NCBI RefSeq assembly: GCF_017347085.1
Contig: NZ_JADPSA010000048.1
Coordinates: 62,001 to 126,000, forward strand
Length of the DNA stretch: 64,000 nt
From: Nesterenkonia sp. E16_10
GTDB lineage: Bacteria; Actinomycetota; Actinomycetes; Actinomycetales; Micrococcaceae
Direction: 5' to 3'
This document shows, in pieces, positions 41,875 through 51,295 of the stretch. Each line of letters begins with the position of its first letter. Positions within the stretch are counted from its first letter, which is position 1. Under the pieces are notes generated by a model, which ran no database searches, was not told the DNA's origin, and saw nothing but the letters and a program-made list of their open reading frames with translations. Both the position numbers and the translations under genes were made by a program.

Positions 41875-41901
41875 CCATCCGATCCTGATCTCGCTCCGAA
41901 C
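41875..41901 (+). promoter_or_regulatory. SigK-type ECF promoter of the fasciclin gene
   Basis: CCATCC (41875-41880), 15 bases, CCGAAC (41896-41901). The identical pair with identical spacing occurs before the molybdoenzyme gene. The form resembles the mycobacterial SigK motif as I recall it (CCATCC then CCGAAT-like). It gives a leader of about 70 bases. Confidence 0.75.
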
Positions 41902-41979
41902 TCTGCGTACATGGCCTGGTCGACACCACGATCAGTGGCTGTGAACCAGACCAACGTGCGACCAACAGGAGATTCAGTC

Positions 41980-42717
41980 ATGAAGACCGAGATTCGTAAA
42001 ACTTCTTCCCTGCTCGGCATCGGCATGGTGGCCCTGCTCGGCCTCAGCGCCTGTGGCGGCGACGCCGAGGAGCCGGCTGCAGAGTCCGACCAGGAGATGA
42101 CCGAGGAGACCGAGGGCACCGACGCCGAGGCCACCGAGGAAGAGCCCATGGACGAAGAGTCGATGGAGTCCGAGGAGCCCATGGATGACGAGTCCATGGA
42201 TGAATCTGACCCAGCGGCGAACCTGGTCGGGGCCTCCTGTGAGGCATATGCCGAGGAAGTCCCCGAGGGTGACGGCTCCGTCGGCGGCATGGCCGAGGAT
42301 CCAGTGGCCACCGCTGCCTCGAACAACCCGATGCTGACCACGCTGACCGCGGCAGTCTCCGGTGAGCTGAACCCCGACGTCGACCTGGTGGACACGCTCA
42401 ACGGTGACGAGTTCACCGTGATCGCCCCCACCGATGACGCCTTCGCCGAGATCCCTGAGGAAGACCTCAACGCAGTGGTCGAGGACGCCGACATGCTCAC
42501 CGAGGTGCTGACCTACCACGTCATCCCCGGCCAGCTGGCTCCCGATGAGATCGCCGGTGAGCACGAGACCGTCAACGGCGCCACCGTGACCATCGAGGGC
42601 GAGGGCGATGACTTGATGTTCGACGACGCCGGCCTCGTCTGCGGCGGCGTGATGACCTCCAACGCCACCGTCTACATGGTCGACGCTGTCCTGATGCCGG
42701 CAGCTGCCGAGGAGTGA
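41980..42717 (+). CDS. Fasciclin-domain lipoprotein (MPT83-like)
   Basis: A 245-residue lipoprotein with signal peptide and lipobox GLSAC (Cys about 24). A strongly acidic linker follows, rich in Glu, Asp and Met with repeated [16 protein letters not shown] units (about 45-70). The FAS1 domain (about 95-240) shows [37 protein letters not shown] and a C-terminal [15 protein letters not shown]1 domains mediate adhesion or surface interactions. MPT83/MPT70 in mycobacteria are SigK targets, matching the sigK-rskA pair downstream. ATG 41980 follows AGGAGA. Confidence 0.93.
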
Positions 42718-42769
42718 TCCTCGGCGGGAATGGTTGCTGAAGACCGTTCCTGACCAGGCCTGAATCGAA

Positions 42770-42820
42770 GACGGCGGCGCTCGGCACCCACCCATCTGTT
42801 GGGGTGCGGGCGCCGCCGTC
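42770..42820 (+). terminator. Terminator hairpin after fasciclin gene
   Basis: GACGGCGGCGC (42770-42780) pairs with GCGCCGCCGTC (42810-42820), and GCACCC (42784-42789) with GGGTGC (42802-42807), around a small internal loop. It starts 53 bases after the fasciclin stop. U-tract absent. Confidence 0.75.
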
Positions 42821-42894
42821 CTCGGTTGCGGTCACACAGCGGCCGGAACCGGTGGATGCAGAGATCACTCTCCGGGGTGTGGCATCCTGTGGGG

Positions 42895-43503
42895 ATGCAT
42901 GAGACAGGAAATCCGGGGTCAGCCGCCGAGGGCGTACATGCTCCGGTGGATGCCTCCGCAGATCCCTGCGGTGCCCTGCTGCTGAAGATTCAGCAGGGCG
43001 ATGAGCTCGCCTTCGAGCAGCTCTACCGGGAGCAGGGTTCGATCCTGTTGGCCACCGCGCTGCGAGTGCTGCGGAACAGATCACTGGCGGAAGAGGTTCT
43101 CCAAGAGATCTTCACCGAGGTCTGGGTCAACTGCCACAGCTACCGCGCCCAGGCCGGCACCGGACGCGCATGGTTGACCACCATGTGTCGACGCCGAGCG
43201 ATCGACCGGGTCCGAGCGGTACAGGCCCAGCAGAACAGAGATTTCACCCAAGGGGTGAAAGAGGCCCACGTGGTGGAGCCCGACGTCCAGGACACAGTCC
43301 TCACTCAGGTGGAGGCGGCCCGCGCGCAGACCGCGCTGCAGACCCTTCCCGAAGAGCAGGCCACCGCCATCGCGATGGCCTACTACCAAGAGCTTTCACA
43401 CTCCGAGATCGCGCAGCGACTTGATGTCCCGCTCGGAACCGTGAAATCTAGAATACGAGACGGCATGCGAAGACTCAGGGCCCAGCTAGGAGGTGCCGGA
43501 TGA
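42895..43503 (+). CDS. sigK: ECF sigma factor SigK
   Basis: A 202-residue ECF sigma factor. Region 2 (about 30-95) has DELAFEQLYREQGSILLATALRVL, AEEVLQEIFTEVW and RAWLTTMCRRRAIDRVR. Region 4 (about 140-195) has LPEEQATAIAMAYYQELSHSEIAQRLDVPLGTVKSRI, quoted as landmarks SHSEIAQRLDVPLGTVKSR. It directs core polymerase to the SigK promoters flanking it. ATG 42895 is chosen from spacing. It overlaps rskA by ATGA. No exact copy of the CCATCC/CCGAAC element was seen before it. Confidence 0.93.
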   Translation: MHETGNPGSAAEGVHAPVDASADPCGALLLKIQQGDELAFEQLYREQGSILLATALRVLRNRSLAEEVLQEIFTEVWVNCHSYRAQAGTGRAWLTTMCRRRAIDRVRAVQAQQNRDFTQGVKEAHVVEPDVQDTVLTQVEAARAQTALQTLPEEQATAIAMAYYQELSHSEIAQRLDVPLGTVKSRIRDGMRRLRAQLGGAG

Positions 43504-44360
43504 ACGCCGATCGCGAATACCTGGCAGCCGGCCTCGCCCTCGGGACGCTGGCAGACGCCGAGATGCTCGAGGCCCTTGACCTCGAAGCCGCAGACCCCGA
43601 TTTCGCCGAAGCGGTCGCGTCCTTCCATGAGACGCTCGGACTGCTCTCCGAGACCGACGACGCCATCGCCCCCAGCGCCGAGACCTCTGCGGCGATCCTG
43701 AACATCCCGCGCCAGCACCAGCAGGCCGTTGCGGATCAGGCGGCTCATCCCGCCGACCCCACCGCCGATGATGCCGACGAGACCGCTCACGCCTCGATTC
43801 CTCACGCCGACACCGCCCACGTCGCGACCCCGGACTCGACCACCCCGGACTCGACCACTCCGGTCTCCACAGCCCCGGCTCGCCGGCGGCGTCCGAGCAC
43901 CGCGCTCTTCGCCCTGGCGGCCTCCACGCTGCTGCTGATCTCCGCCGTGCTGGCGGGCGCGCTGATCAACCAGCAGCAGGACACCAGCCAGATCGAGGAG
44001 TCGCTCACCGTGGCCGAGGCCGAGCGCGAACGTGCCGAACGGCTGCTCAGCGCCTCGGACCTGGCCTTCATCGAAGCCGAGGCGACCGTGGGCGGGCAGC
44101 TCAGCCTGGCCTATTCGGTCTCCGAGCAGATGCTGCACCTGACCCCGCGCGATATGCCCGAGCTCGACGAGGATCAGACCATGCAGCTGTGGCTGATCGA
44201 TGAGGAGGGCCCGCGCAGCGCCGGCCTGATGACCGGTGCCAGCACCGAGCTGCTCACGGACCTCCCGATGACTCAGGACATGACCTTCGGGGTCACCGTG
44301 GAGCCCGCAGGAGGCTCCGAGGAGCCGACCAGCGACCCCGTGGTGCTCGCGGATCTATAA
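43500..44360 (+). CDS. rskA: Anti-sigma-K factor RskA
   Basis: A 286-residue membrane anti-sigma factor. The N-terminal helical domain (about 1-75, LAAGLALGTLADAEMLEAL) would bind SigK in the cytoplasm. A Thr/Pro/Asp-rich linker contains a repeated STTPDSTTPV stretch (about 118-128). One membrane helix lies at about 136-160 (LFALAASTLLLISAVLAGALI, preceded by RRRR). The extracytoplasmic RskA domain (about 195-286) includes MQLWLIDEEGPRSAGLM and TFGVTVEPAGGS. Regulated intramembrane proteolysis would release SigK, as known in mycobacteria. Confidence 0.92.
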   Translation: MNADREYLAAGLALGTLADAEMLEALDLEAADPDFAEAVASFHETLGLLSETDDAIAPSAETSAAILNIPRQHQQAVADQAAHPADPTADDADETAHASIPHADTAHVATPDSTTPDSTTPVSTAPARRRRPSTALFALAASTLLLISAVLAGALINQQQDTSQIEESLTVAEAERERAERLLSASDLAFIEAEATVGGQLSLAYSVSEQMLHLTPRDMPELDEDQTMQLWLIDEEGPRSAGLMTGASTELLTDLPMTQDMTFGVTVEPAGGSEEPTSDPVVLADL

Positions 44361-44374
44361 GCTGGGCTCGAGAA

Positions 44375-44401
44375 CCATCCAAAGGCGCCTTCGCTCCGAA
44401 C
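44375..44401 (+). promoter_or_regulatory. Second SigK-type ECF promoter, before the molybdoenzyme
   Basis: CCATCC (44375-44380), 15 bases, CCGAAC (44396-44401). The -10 element ends seven bases before the ATG at 44409, so the mRNA is probably leaderless. It lies only 15 bases after the rskA stop. Confidence 0.75.
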
Positions 44402-44408
44402 TCATGAC

Positions 44409-46085
44409 ATGACTGAGACAGTGCACGAGACCCCCGGAACCACCGGCCGCGGACCCTCACGACCGCCCACCCGCCGGCGGCGCGTGATTCCGCACCTGAT
44501 CGCCGGGGTCCTCGCCGCAGCGATCTTCCTCGGTGTGGCAGATCTGATCTCTCAGTTCTTCGGACCGGCGTCCTCACCGCTGGTCTCGCTGGGCTCCACG
44601 ATCATCACGCTCTCCCCCAGCTGGCTGCAGGACTTCGCGATCTCCTACTTCGGCAGCAACAACAAGCTGGTGCTCTACCTGAGCATGGGCGTGGTCGGGA
44701 TGATCCTGGCCGCCCTGATCGGGGCACTGGCCCGTCGCAGCCTGCGCCTGGGCGCAGGCCTGTTCTCCGCCGTCGCGGTGGTCCTGCTGATCGTGGTGCT
44801 GCTGCGCCCCGAGACCTCCCCGCTGGATGTGGTGCCTACGCTGATCGGCGCCGGGCTCGGCCTCCTGAGCCTGCTGCTGCTCAGCGGCGCCGCCACCGGG
44901 TTCACCCGGGAGGTCGCTGAGGATCCTGCTGGCCCCGCGGATCAGGGCCGCCCGGCGCAGACCCGGCGCGCCAGCACCGCCGGTCCCAGCACCGATGACG
45001 AGCGCGCCCACTCGCGGCGCCGCTTCCTGAGCCTGGCCGCCGTCGGGACCGCCGTCGCCGCCGGCTCGATCACCTTCGGACGCTCGGTCAATGCCTTCGG
45101 TGTGGGCGCCGGAGAGGCGGCGGCCCGTCTGGTGCTGCCCACTCCCGCGGTGCGCGCCCCCGCCATCCCGGCCGGTGCCAGCGTCGGGGTGGACGGGGTG
45201 CCACCGTTCATCACCCCGAACAACGACTTCTACCGGATCGACACCGCGCTGGTGGTTCCGGAGCTCTCCCCCCAGGACTGGACGCTGCGGATCCATGGCC
45301 TGGTCGAGGAAGAGGTCACGATCGACATGACCGAGCTGCTGGACCTGCCGCTCGAGGAGCACCACATCACGCTGGCCTGCGTCTCGAACCCGGTGGGCGG
45401 AGACCTGCTCGGCAACGCCACCTGGCTGGGCTACCCGATCCGCGAGCTGCTCGCCCGGGCTCGTCCGCTGGGCGAGGCCGATATGGTGCTCTCCCGCTCG
45501 GTCGACGGCTGGACGGCCTCGACCCCGCTGGAGGTGCTCACCGACGAGGACCGCGCCTGCCTGCTCGCGGTGGGCATGAACGGCGAGCCGCTGCCGGCTC
45601 AGCACGGCTACCCGGCCAGGCTGGTGGTCCCAGGCCTCTACGGCTACGTCTCGGCCACCAAATGGGTCACCGAGCTGGAGGTCACCCGCTTCGACGCGGA
45701 GACCGCCTACTGGACCGACCGCGGCTGGGACGCCGAGGGACCGATCCTGGTCGCCTCGCGCATCGACGTGCCCCGCCCGCTGGCCAGGGTTCCCGGCGGC
45801 GAGGAGCTCGTCGTCGCCGGCACCGCCTGGGCCCAGCATGAGGGCGTCGCCGACGTCGAGGTCCGCCTGGACGACGGCGAGTGGGAGTCCGTCGAGCTGG
45901 CCGATGAGGTCAACATCGACACCTGGCGGCAGTGGCGCCACACCTTCGCCGACGTCGAATCCGGACGCCACTCGGTGTCGGTTCGCGCGATCAACGCCGC
46001 CGGGGAGACCCAGACCGACGAGCGCCGGGACCCGATCCCGAACGCCGCCACGGGTCAGCACCGGATCGAGTTCAGCGTGGAGTGA
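44409..46085 (+). CDS. Membrane-anchored sulfite-oxidase-family molybdopterin oxidoreductase
   Basis: A 558-residue protein. Four hydrophobic helices (about 22-42, 92-112, 115-137, 140-165) precede an SRRRFLSLAAVGTAVAAG segment (about 203-220) resembling a Tat-type signal or fifth helix. The molybdopterin domain follows (PFITPNNDFYRIDTALVVPE, then the Mo-ligand Cys in LACVSNPVGGDLLGNATW at about 328, and HGYPARLVVPGLYGY). A Mo-co dimerisation domain ends the protein. The catalytic site would face outside. A related membrane enzyme exists in mycobacteria (Rv0218-like). Its electron partner and substrate are unknown. Confidence 0.9.
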   Translation: MTETVHETPGTTGRGPSRPPTRRRRVIPHLIAGVLAAAIFLGVADLISQFFGPASSPLVSLGSTIITLSPSWLQDFAISYFGSNNKLVLYLSMGVVGMILAALIGALARRSLRLGAGLFSAVAVVLLIVVLLRPETSPLDVVPTLIGAGLGLLSLLLLSGAATGFTREVAEDPAGPADQGRPAQTRRASTAGPSTDDERAHSRRRFLSLAAVGTAVAAGSITFGRSVNAFGVGAGEAAARLVLPTPAVRAPAIPAGASVGVDGVPPFITPNNDFYRIDTALVVPELSPQDWTLRIHGLVEEEVTIDMTELLDLPLEEHHITLACVSNPVGGDLLGNATWLGYPIRELLARARPLGEADMVLSRSVDGWTASTPLEVLTDEDRACLLAVGMNGEPLPAQHGYPARLVVPGLYGYVSATKWVTELEVTRFDAETAYWTDRGWDAEGPILVASRIDVPRPLARVPGGEELVVAGTAWAQHEGVADVEVRLDDGEWESVELADEVNIDTWRQWRHTFADVESGRHSVSVRAINAAGETQTDERRDPIPNAATGQHRIEFSVE

Positions 46086-47270: not shown

Positions 47271-47296
47271 GGCTCCAGCCTATAGACTCACTGCCT

Positions 47297-48103
47297 ATGC
47301 GCCGCTCAGCCAGGACCCGACTCCTCCCCGGCGCGCTGCTGCTGGCGCTGCTCTCCGGCTGCGCGAACGCCCCCGATTCAGGCGCCCCTGATGCAGACAC
47401 ACCCGACGCCGAGACCGGGCAGCCGCTGCGGGTCCTCGCGGCCGCCTCGCTGCAGGAGGTGATGGATCCGCTGGTCCAGGAGTTCACCGAGAGGACCGGC
47501 GTCCCGGTTCAGCTGAGCTCGGGGGGCTCCGCCGACCTGCTCTCCCAGCTTACGCAGGGTGCTCCGGGTGATCTCTTCGTCCCCGCCGATGAGCCGACCA
47601 TGGAACGTGCGCAGGATGCCTCCCTGATCCGGCAGGACCCCTCGGTCATCGCCTCGAACACCCTGGTCATCGCGGTGCCTTCGGGGAACCCGGGGCGGAT
47701 CGGGACCTTGGCGGACCTCGCCGATCCTCAACACGCGCTGGTCCTCTGCGCCCCCCAGGTCCCGTGCGGCGCGGTGGCGCAGCAGCTGGCACAGGCCGCG
47801 GACGTGACCCTGGCTCCGGACAGCGAGGAGCTGGCGGTCACCGATGTGCTGGGCAAGGTGCGCAGCGCCGAGGCCGACGCCGGCCTGGTCTACTCCACCG
47901 ACGCGCTGCGCGCCGGTGAGGAGGTCGAGACCATCCGCATCGAGGAGGCCGCCGAGTTCCCGAACCGGTATCCGGCGGCGGTGCTGGCCGGAGCCGAGCA
48001 GCCGGAGCTCGCCGCGGAGTTCATCGAGCTGCTGCTCAGCGAGTCCGGCCAGTCGGCGTTGGAGCAGGCAGGATTCGGCCCGGCGTCGGAGGCTTCCGGA
48101 TGA
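47297..48103 (+). CDS. modA: Molybdate ABC transporter substrate-binding lipoprotein ModA
   Basis: A 268-residue lipoprotein with lipobox LLSGC (Cys about 20). The ModA pattern is VLAAASLQEVMDPLVQEFTERTG, then SSGGSADLLSQLTQGAPGDLFVPADE (landmarks SSGGSADLL and GDLFVPAD) and EADAGLVYSTDALR. The ATG at 47297 lies eight bases after TAGACT, consistent with a leaderless transcript; a reading from 47249 is rejected because it precedes the signal peptide. It overlaps modB by ATGA. Confidence 0.92.
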   Translation: MRRSARTRLLPGALLLALLSGCANAPDSGAPDADTPDAETGQPLRVLAAASLQEVMDPLVQEFTERTGVPVQLSSGGSADLLSQLTQGAPGDLFVPADEPTMERAQDASLIRQDPSVIASNTLVIAVPSGNPGRIGTLADLADPQHALVLCAPQVPCGAVAQQLAQAADVTLAPDSEELAVTDVLGKVRSAEADAGLVYSTDALRAGEEVETIRIEEAAEFPNRYPAAVLAGAEQPELAAEFIELLLSESGQSALEQAGFGPASEASG

Positions 48104-48865
48104 GCCGCCGACCGACCGGCGGGGCAGCTCTGCCGCGCTGGGTCCTGTTCCCCGCCGCCGCCGCCGCGGTGTTCATCCTGCTGCCCATCTTCGCCCTGCT
48201 GACCCGGATCGAGCTTGCCGAGCTTCCCCGCCTGCTCAGCTCGGAGGCGGCGCTGTCCGCGCTGTGGCTGAGCCTGCGCACCTCAGTGACGGCCACGCTG
48301 CTGTGCACCGTCCTCGGCGTGCCGCTGGCCCTGGTGCTCAGCCACGCCACCTTCCGCGGCAGCGGGATCCTGCGCACACTGATCCTGCTGCCCCTGGTGC
48401 TGCCCCCGGTGATCGGGGGCATCGCGCTGCTGAACACCTTCGGCCGGCAGGGACTGCTCGGTGAGAGCCTCGAGCTGCTCGGCGTGCAGATCGCCTTCTC
48501 CACCGCGGCGGTGGTGCTGGCGCAGACCTTCGTGTCGCTGCCGTTCATGGTGATCGCCGTGGAGTCCGCGTTGCGCGGGGTGCAGAAGGAGGTGATGGAG
48601 GCCGCCGTCGTCGACGGGGCCGGGCCCACCCAGCTGCTGCGCAGCATCGTGCTGCCGCTGATCCTCCCGGGGCTGGCCTCCGGGGTGGTGCTGGCCTTCG
48701 CGCGTTCCCTCGGCGAGTTCGGCGCCACGATCGCCTTCGCCGGGAGCCTGCAAGGGGTCACCCGCACGCTGCCGCTCGAGATCTACCTGCAGCGCGAGAC
48801 CGATCCGGACGCGGCCGTGGCGCTCTCGGTGCTGCTGATCCTGGTGGCGGTGGTGGTGATCGGTC

Positions 48866-51295
<2,430 letters not shown>

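Follow-up and report, generated by a model that had tools for sequence, protein, structure and literature searches.

The closest described counterpart of the system analyzed here is the mpt83-sigK-rskA cassette of mycobacteria, in which a gene for a fasciclin-type lipoprotein with a SigK site adjoins sigK and rskA as part of the SigK regulon (described in passages of PMC7509140). The combination of a fasciclin-sigK-rskA cassette and a SigK site is thus already known, and the same passages state that the signal sensed by SigK-RskA is still unknown. The locus considered here lies in a stretch of 64,000 nucleotides (nt) of Nesterenkonia sp. E16_10 (contig NZ_JADPSA010000048.1, positions 62,001 to 126,000), which is called the window throughout and from whose first letter all window positions are counted. 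It contains such a cassette, followed by a gene for a membrane-anchored molybdoenzyme, and two identical candidate promoters of SigK type flank the sigK-rskA pair. The rskA start overlaps the sigK stop. The principal features are:

41875..41901, + strand: predicted SigK-type promoter of the fasciclin gene, exact CCATCC-N15-CCGAAC, extended GCTCCGAAC
41980..42717, + strand: fasciclin lipoprotein gene, 245 amino acids (aa), acidic methionine-rich linker (PF02469, 88.3 bits, cut-off 22)
42895..43503, + strand: sigK, extracytoplasmic function (ECF) sigma factor, 202 aa (Sigma70 r2 and r4)
43500..44360, + strand: rskA, membrane anti-sigma factor, 286 aa (PF10099 RskA_C, 80.4 bits, cut-off 29.4; NF052375, 104.3 of 100)
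44375..44401, + strand: predicted SigK-type promoter of the molybdoenzyme gene, exact CCATCC-N15-CCGAAC
44409..46085, + strand: membrane-anchored molybdoenzyme of the sulfite oxidase superfamily, 558 aa (PF00174, 147.7 bits, cut-off 24)

The motif pair CCATCC/CCGAA is what we take to be the mycobacterial SigK consensus. The original prediction had placed exact copies of CCATCC-N15-CCGAAC at 41875-41901 and 44375-44401, with sigK (start at 42895) and rskA between them. This arrangement was confirmed: the 64-kb window holds these two matches and no third, with a mean of 0.02 expected by chance, and two matches were reached in none of 100 shuffles of the window. The fixed positions common to both sites number 15 (CCATCC-N12-GCTCCGAAC), so that the shared element is longer than first described. 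The genome (G000), which comprises 3.30 Mb on 51 contigs and is 98.75% complete, contains this extended form five times exactly, never with one mismatch and 17 times with two. A genome-wide search for CCATCC-N14-17-CCGAA(C/T), proposed beforehand as a check against many random matches, returned 10 matches compared to one in the reversed control. Half of these (n = 5) carry the extended form, and each of the five lies 8-79 nt upstream of a correctly oriented gene. Counted from the CCGAA end to the start codon, the distances are 79 nt for the fasciclin lipoprotein, 8 nt for the molybdoenzyme, about 73 and 75 nt for two paralogous CHRD-like secreted proteins, and about 69 nt for a tiny protein of 81 aa that is followed by a nonribosomal peptide synthetase (NRPS). 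The other five matches (L001, L002, L004, L005 and L008) have no convincing downstream gene by eye and were set aside. The idea of a small regulon is thus upheld, but the two window sites do not delimit it as had been supposed, because three identical sites precede the two CHRD-like genes and the tiny-protein/NRPS unit.

We consider it likely that both window sites are promoters read by the SigK-containing RNA polymerase, and that SigK, restrained by RskA, drives the five loci, with a leaderless transcript for the molybdoenzyme. What the sequences themselves show is where the sites lie, how well they are conserved and that they occur together with sigK; SigK binding and the transcription starts are inferred. 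In the proposed mechanism, RskA in the membrane would keep SigK inactive until an extracytoplasmic signal, perhaps ultraviolet B (UV-B) radiation or oxidative damage, leads to the loss of RskA and leaves SigK active. SigK would then start transcription at the genes of the fasciclin lipoprotein, the membrane molybdoenzyme (with an mRNA beginning at the ATG) and two CHRD-like sortase-anchored proteins, and at the tiny-protein/NRPS unit. The sigK-rskA pair itself would have a housekeeping-type promoter giving basal, leaderless transcription, and any feedback would consist of read-through from the fasciclin promoter past the terminator. The regulon, whose target proteins are exported or located in the membrane, may serve envelope redox protection or repair.

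The most direct evidence comes from the genus, for which we surveyed 30 Nesterenkonia genomes, including the one studied here, with the pattern CCATCC-N12-13-GCTCCGAA. A total of 46 sites was found in 21 of the 30 genomes, and none in the reversed control. All but two of them (44 of 46) precede only five gene families, which on inspection are the molybdoenzyme (n = 13), the fasciclin protein (n = 11), CHRD-like proteins (n = 11), a methionine-rich lipoprotein of about 460 aa (n = 6) and the tiny protein/NRPS (n = 3). The two sites given no family are G009:C2:340077 and G018:C1:155160, followed by nothing more than frames of 68 and 62 aa, respectively. A sigK match at E values up to 1e-20 is present in 21 of the 30 genomes; after inspection of the list, E <1e-60 was adopted, leaving 19. 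Of these 19 genomes, 18 have sites, versus three of the other 11 (Fisher p 2.2e-4); among the genomes that are at least 90% complete (n = 26), the counts are 17 of 18 with sigK versus one of eight without (p 9e-5). Both p values are too small because the genomes are related. The sole sigK genome without a pattern match (G022) has a slightly divergent site before its molybdoenzyme gene.

The order fasciclin-sigK-rskA-molybdoenzyme is kept in 18 of the 19 genus sigK loci, the window included; for the remaining one (G027), the fasciclin gene and the molybdoenzyme gene were not found within the 11 kb examined. In all 18 four-gene loci the fasciclin gene has its site (15 exact, three with CAATCC), located 72-102 nt upstream of the start. 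The molybdoenzyme site lies 8 or 9 nt from the ATG in 17 of the 18 (16 exact, one with a mismatch), and in the eighteenth (L110 of G015) it lies 8 nt before the ATG of a molybdoenzyme gene with frame breaks. The latter genome is 62% complete, and sigK of the same locus has an internal TGA; the defects of both genes may reflect decay or sequencing error. Leaderless transcription would predict just this combination of a variable fasciclin leader and a constant molybdoenzyme spacing.

Beyond the genus, we took the best 80 of at least 578 molybdoenzyme relatives (the named loci) and scored each for a 13-position element whose end lies 6-9 nt upstream of an in-frame start codon (ATG or GTG), with a threshold of 11 of 13. 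This threshold was reached by 38 of the 80 loci, compared with 0.04 per 80 obtained from shuffled upstream sequence. The spacing is 8 nt in 33 of the 38, 9 nt in three and 6 nt in two. Eleven of these loci are grouped with fasciclin, sigK and rskA genes, six of them from Brevibacterium, where the molybdoenzyme gene is located upstream of the fasciclin gene and retains the site. The other 27 all come from Arthrobacter, Pseudarthrobacter or Paenarthrobacter; in the flank examined, which covers at most 6 kb of upstream sequence and is shorter in a few cases, they show no sigK. For 19 of the 80 genomes the presence of SigK was tested, and a match at E values up to 1e-25 was found in all 19, weakly in Promicromonospora. 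These include 12 genomes with a sigK-unlinked leaderless site (12 of the 27), each of which has a SigK-like gene. Of the 19 best sigK loci in the tested genomes, 16 have a SigK-type site. Scanning the family with CCATCC-N14-17-CCGAA-N7-10-ATG proved too loose, as 183 of 295 genomes match and many of the sites listed lie in recurring, similar sequence, as coding words would; an off-spacing scan, 1-3 nt away from the true sites, matched 14 times, in 10 of the 12 genomes scanned, and controls gave two matches. The comparative data from the genus and from the named loci thus back both predicted SigK-type promoters. Likewise, the fixed spacing in 17 of 18 genus loci and 38 of 80 named loci speaks for the predicted leaderless start of the molybdoenzyme gene, with an mRNA probably beginning at the ATG.

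Several observations weigh against this account. The top NCBIfam model of the window SigK is indeed SigK (NF007228), but its 176.2 bits stay below the curated cut-off of 226. With up to three mismatches, CCATCC-N12-GCTCCGAAC matches the genome 194 times versus 88 times in the reversed control, and therefore the strict form alone is informative. The genomes of the genus are related and do not count as independent. The leaderless element is absent in 42 of the 80 named loci, 12 of which are grouped with at least fasciclin and rskA genes; five of these 12 (L153, L155, L156, L161 and L171) have a leadered CAATCC-N15-CCGAA site. A SigK-like gene also occurs in all seven tested genomes without a leaderless site. 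The presence of SigK alone consequently does not imply a link to the molybdoenzyme, and this link is apparently confined to some lineages. Finally, G013 and G014 contain a second SigK-like gene beside the gene of a methionine-rich two-repeat lipoprotein that carries the same site (L109:4199-6334 and L113:4222-6275), which leaves the specificity of the sites for the window SigK unproven. The second SigK-like protein of G013 scores 226.4 bits against the SigK cut-off of 226, above the window SigK.

The latter arrangement favors the alternative that the sites are read by another ECF sigma factor of similar specificity, and not (only) by the adjacent SigK. So do three genomes with sites and no sigK match at E <1e-60, namely G010, G014 (with the other SigK-like gene beside a target) and G028. 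Yet G010 and G028 are only 79% and 82% complete, and the fasciclin gene of G028 lies near a contig end, while sites flank 18 of the 19 sigK-rskA loci of the genus and co-occur with sigK; we regard this alternative as unlikely. Still less probable, in our judgment, is that the molybdoenzyme is expressed mainly by read-through from sigK-rskA and that the site at 44375 plays a minor part. The molybdoenzyme gene does begin 48 nt past the rskA stop on the same strand, and in two Brachybacterium loci (L165 and L185) it starts directly at the rskA stop or close beside it, leaving no room for a site. Against this, both site and spacing are retained at the 27 loci without linkage to sigK and at the six Brevibacterium loci, in which the gene precedes the cassette.

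Two further elements in the spacer between the fasciclin gene and sigK bear on the control of sigK itself:

42763..42827, + strand: terminator-like hairpin (fold of -47.9 kcal/mol within 42761-42840)
42880..42888, + strand: extended -10-like element of sigK, TGGCATCCT, 6 nt before the ATG

A motif TG(A/G)CA(T/A)N(C/A)T lies 6-7 nt upstream of an in-frame sigK start in all 19 genus sigK loci, a count that is biased in its favor because the starts were chosen among in-frame ATG/GTG codons by means of this very element. It may represent an extended -10 element used by the housekeeping sigma factor and giving a leaderless sigK mRNA. A basal sigK promoter that is not read by SigK would agree with the mycobacterial arrangement, in which the promoter immediately upstream of sigK is not SigK-regulated and feedback runs via an upstream promoter (passages of PMC7509140). 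In the Arthrobacter group, a SigK-type site precedes sigK itself in 10 of 12 loci, which suggests direct autoregulation in that group, and within Nesterenkonia such a site stands immediately before sigK in G027. The degenerate element CCATCT-N15-CCGCCG exists at 42792-42818 as originally predicted, and its correct spacing, its position ahead of sigK and these direct sites elsewhere would fit the proposed weak SigK promoter feeding back on sigK, but we reject this role as highly implausible, since the element falls within the loop and 3' arm of the hairpin, is the only match of the loose pattern CCATCY-N15-CCGMMS in the window besides the two exact sites (three matches versus 0.70 expected by chance), and occurs at the equivalent place in just two of 17 relatives (L094 and L096; absent there in the rest, the match of L104 lying elsewhere).

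The top PDB match of the window SigK is 4nqw (SigK; E 1e-30). In the alignment with 4nqw, an alanine takes the place of the first mycobacterial cysteine, and no cysteine occurs after residue 100. According to passages of PMC7509140, the conserved SigK cysteines (133 and 183 in mycobacteria) form a pair that is present in 56% of ECF19, and the lack of this pair therefore does not exclude membership of the SigK family. The thiol switch reported for mycobacterial SigK in the same source is unlikely here, because alanine replaces the first cysteine and the second half of the protein has none; loss of RskA is a likelier trigger. In Nesterenkonia sp. Act20, which has the cassette with both sites (L099 and L144), the abundance of RskA reportedly went down after UV exposure and later recovered, in passages of PMC8965627 that do not name which gene is concerned. 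The main text of that paper makes no mention of a fasciclin, molybdenum, sulfite or CHRD protein, and the Act20 data hence lend no support to induction of the targets. As a separate observation, contig C32 of the genome studied here contains two partial sigK-like matches, L088 (G000:C32:15450-15707) and L093 (8846-9100), of 86 and 85 residues with 55% and 48% identity. They are perhaps sigK fragments and lie on the same contig as the sortase cluster described below.

Among the targets, the molybdoenzyme combines an N-terminal membrane part with an internal twin-arginine motif, SRRRFL, as read from its sequence. Its profile matches the sulfite dehydrogenase 2ca4 (E 7.6e-23), and C324 is invariant among the aligned relatives. 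It falls below all four NCBIfam equivalog cut-offs, with 103.9 of 600 bits for SorA, 88 of 420 for SoxC, 67.2 of 570 for SorT and 64.3 of 207 for MsrP. At 1.2 kb downstream, past an aminotransferase gene on the opposite strand, two further genes are found:

47294..48103, + strand: ModA-like binding protein (PF13531, 165.6 bits)
48100..48903, + strand: ModB-like permease (PF00528, 61.6 bits)

They may provide molybdate uptake nearby, the Mod names being our assignment, and are candidate neighbors whose membership of the regulon is not part of our claim.

The two CHRD-like paralogues are encoded on other contigs and have no significant Pfam match, CHRD included. A GVDTG sorting tail reaches 34.1 bits (cut-off 29) in one of them and 22.5 bits in the other. 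The gene of the paralogue with the GVDTG tail is located near two class F sortase genes, of which one scores 166.2 of 166 and the second 159.1, below the cut-off, and near a gene for a CHRD protein. The C32 cluster as a whole (L013:6634-15505) comprises the two sortase genes, the CHRD/GVDTG protein, the GVDTG target and a cytochrome b5-like lipoprotein. The CHRD-like target proteins contain an HIH motif. In Arthrobacter wenxiniae and Brachybacterium tyrofermentans, CHRD-like genes adjoining the sigK locus have their own SigK-type sites; the Brachybacterium relative with its own site beside the sigK locus has a CHRD score of 29.4 (cut-off 24.1).

The fifth site belongs to a unit on contig C22, in which the gene of the 81-aa tiny protein (L012:7357-7602) is followed after 70 nt by the NRPS gene (L282:672-11378). 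The NRPS is trimodular, with three domains each of the condensation, adenylation and carrier types and a thioesterase. On its 3' side lies an ATP-binding cassette (ABC) ATPase gene, DrrA-like with a C-terminal match under the cut-off. The tiny protein matches no Pfam or NCBIfam model. Relatives of it occur in seven of 295 genomes of the family, representing three of 32 genera, and all seven have a SigK-type site upstream, an NRPS gene downstream (assigned in G009 and G019 from length and N-terminal sequence) and a SigK-like gene in the genome. An order-wide search added 18 tiny-protein loci among 396 genomes, spread over five families, each with an NRPS homologue downstream. A strict SigK-type site precedes 15 of these 18, versus 0.04 expected from shuffles, and the other three have a site with one mismatch at a similar distance. 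In total, the strict site is present in 22 of 25 loci, and all 25 have it within one mismatch (relatives L289-L292 and L302-L319). The tiny proteins vary in length and N-terminus and share a tail with GPL and IGQFQ or LGQFQ (...LQIGQFQ in the protein studied here). With a 32-position tail profile of uncertain sensitivity, a class-wide search retrieved only the genome studied here among 394.

A wider reading can be offered tentatively as a possibility. SigK of Micrococcales may run a redox-defense program of the envelope that includes a leaderless extracytoplasmic molybdoenzyme and an apparently undescribed tiny-protein/NRPS unit. The tiny peptide might take part in, or form the core of, the NRPS product, which could be a SigK-induced signal, chelator or protectant, with UV-B or oxidative damage as the signal for RskA. 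The literature searched, which left out Veyrier 2008 on the evolution of the SigK regulon, yielded no report of SigK control of molybdoenzyme, CHRD or NRPS genes. These targets seem new, though we claim no priority for the molybdoenzyme. With a small regulon whose promoter is near-invariant, and with a member of the genus, Act20, that reportedly loses RskA upon UV exposure (passages of PMC8965627), both signal and function become testable. The molybdoenzyme site retained away from sigK and the tiny-protein/NRPS site kept across five families point to functions beyond fasciclin antigens. Moreover, with its constant 8-nt spacing the molybdoenzyme site is well suited to making the case that an ECF promoter can drive leaderless expression.

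Compared with the known systems, the locus is like the mycobacterial mpt83-sigK-rskA cassette in that a fasciclin gene with a SigK site stands beside sigK and rskA, and presumably also in a sigK-proximal promoter that is not SigK-regulated (as given for mycobacteria in passages of PMC7509140). It differs from the mycobacterial SigK regulon in the molybdoenzyme, the CHRD-like sortase substrates and the tiny-protein/NRPS unit that carry the site here, and no upstream operon of the Rv0449c type is seen at the window locus. The two cysteines described in those passages as important for mycobacterial SigK are absent from the window SigK. With the superfamily of sulfite dehydrogenase, sulfite oxidase and MsrP, the molybdoenzyme shares the Oxidored_molyb domain, the profile similarity to solved sulfite dehydrogenases and the invariant C324, whereas it misses the four equivalog cut-offs and has an N-terminal membrane part and an internal twin-arginine motif. 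Finally, the CHRD-like targets resemble GVDTG/CHRD proteins with class F sortases in a sorting tail, which exceeds the cut-off in one paralogue, and in class F sortase genes near that paralogue, and depart from them in the SigK-type sites upstream and in the lack of a Pfam CHRD match.

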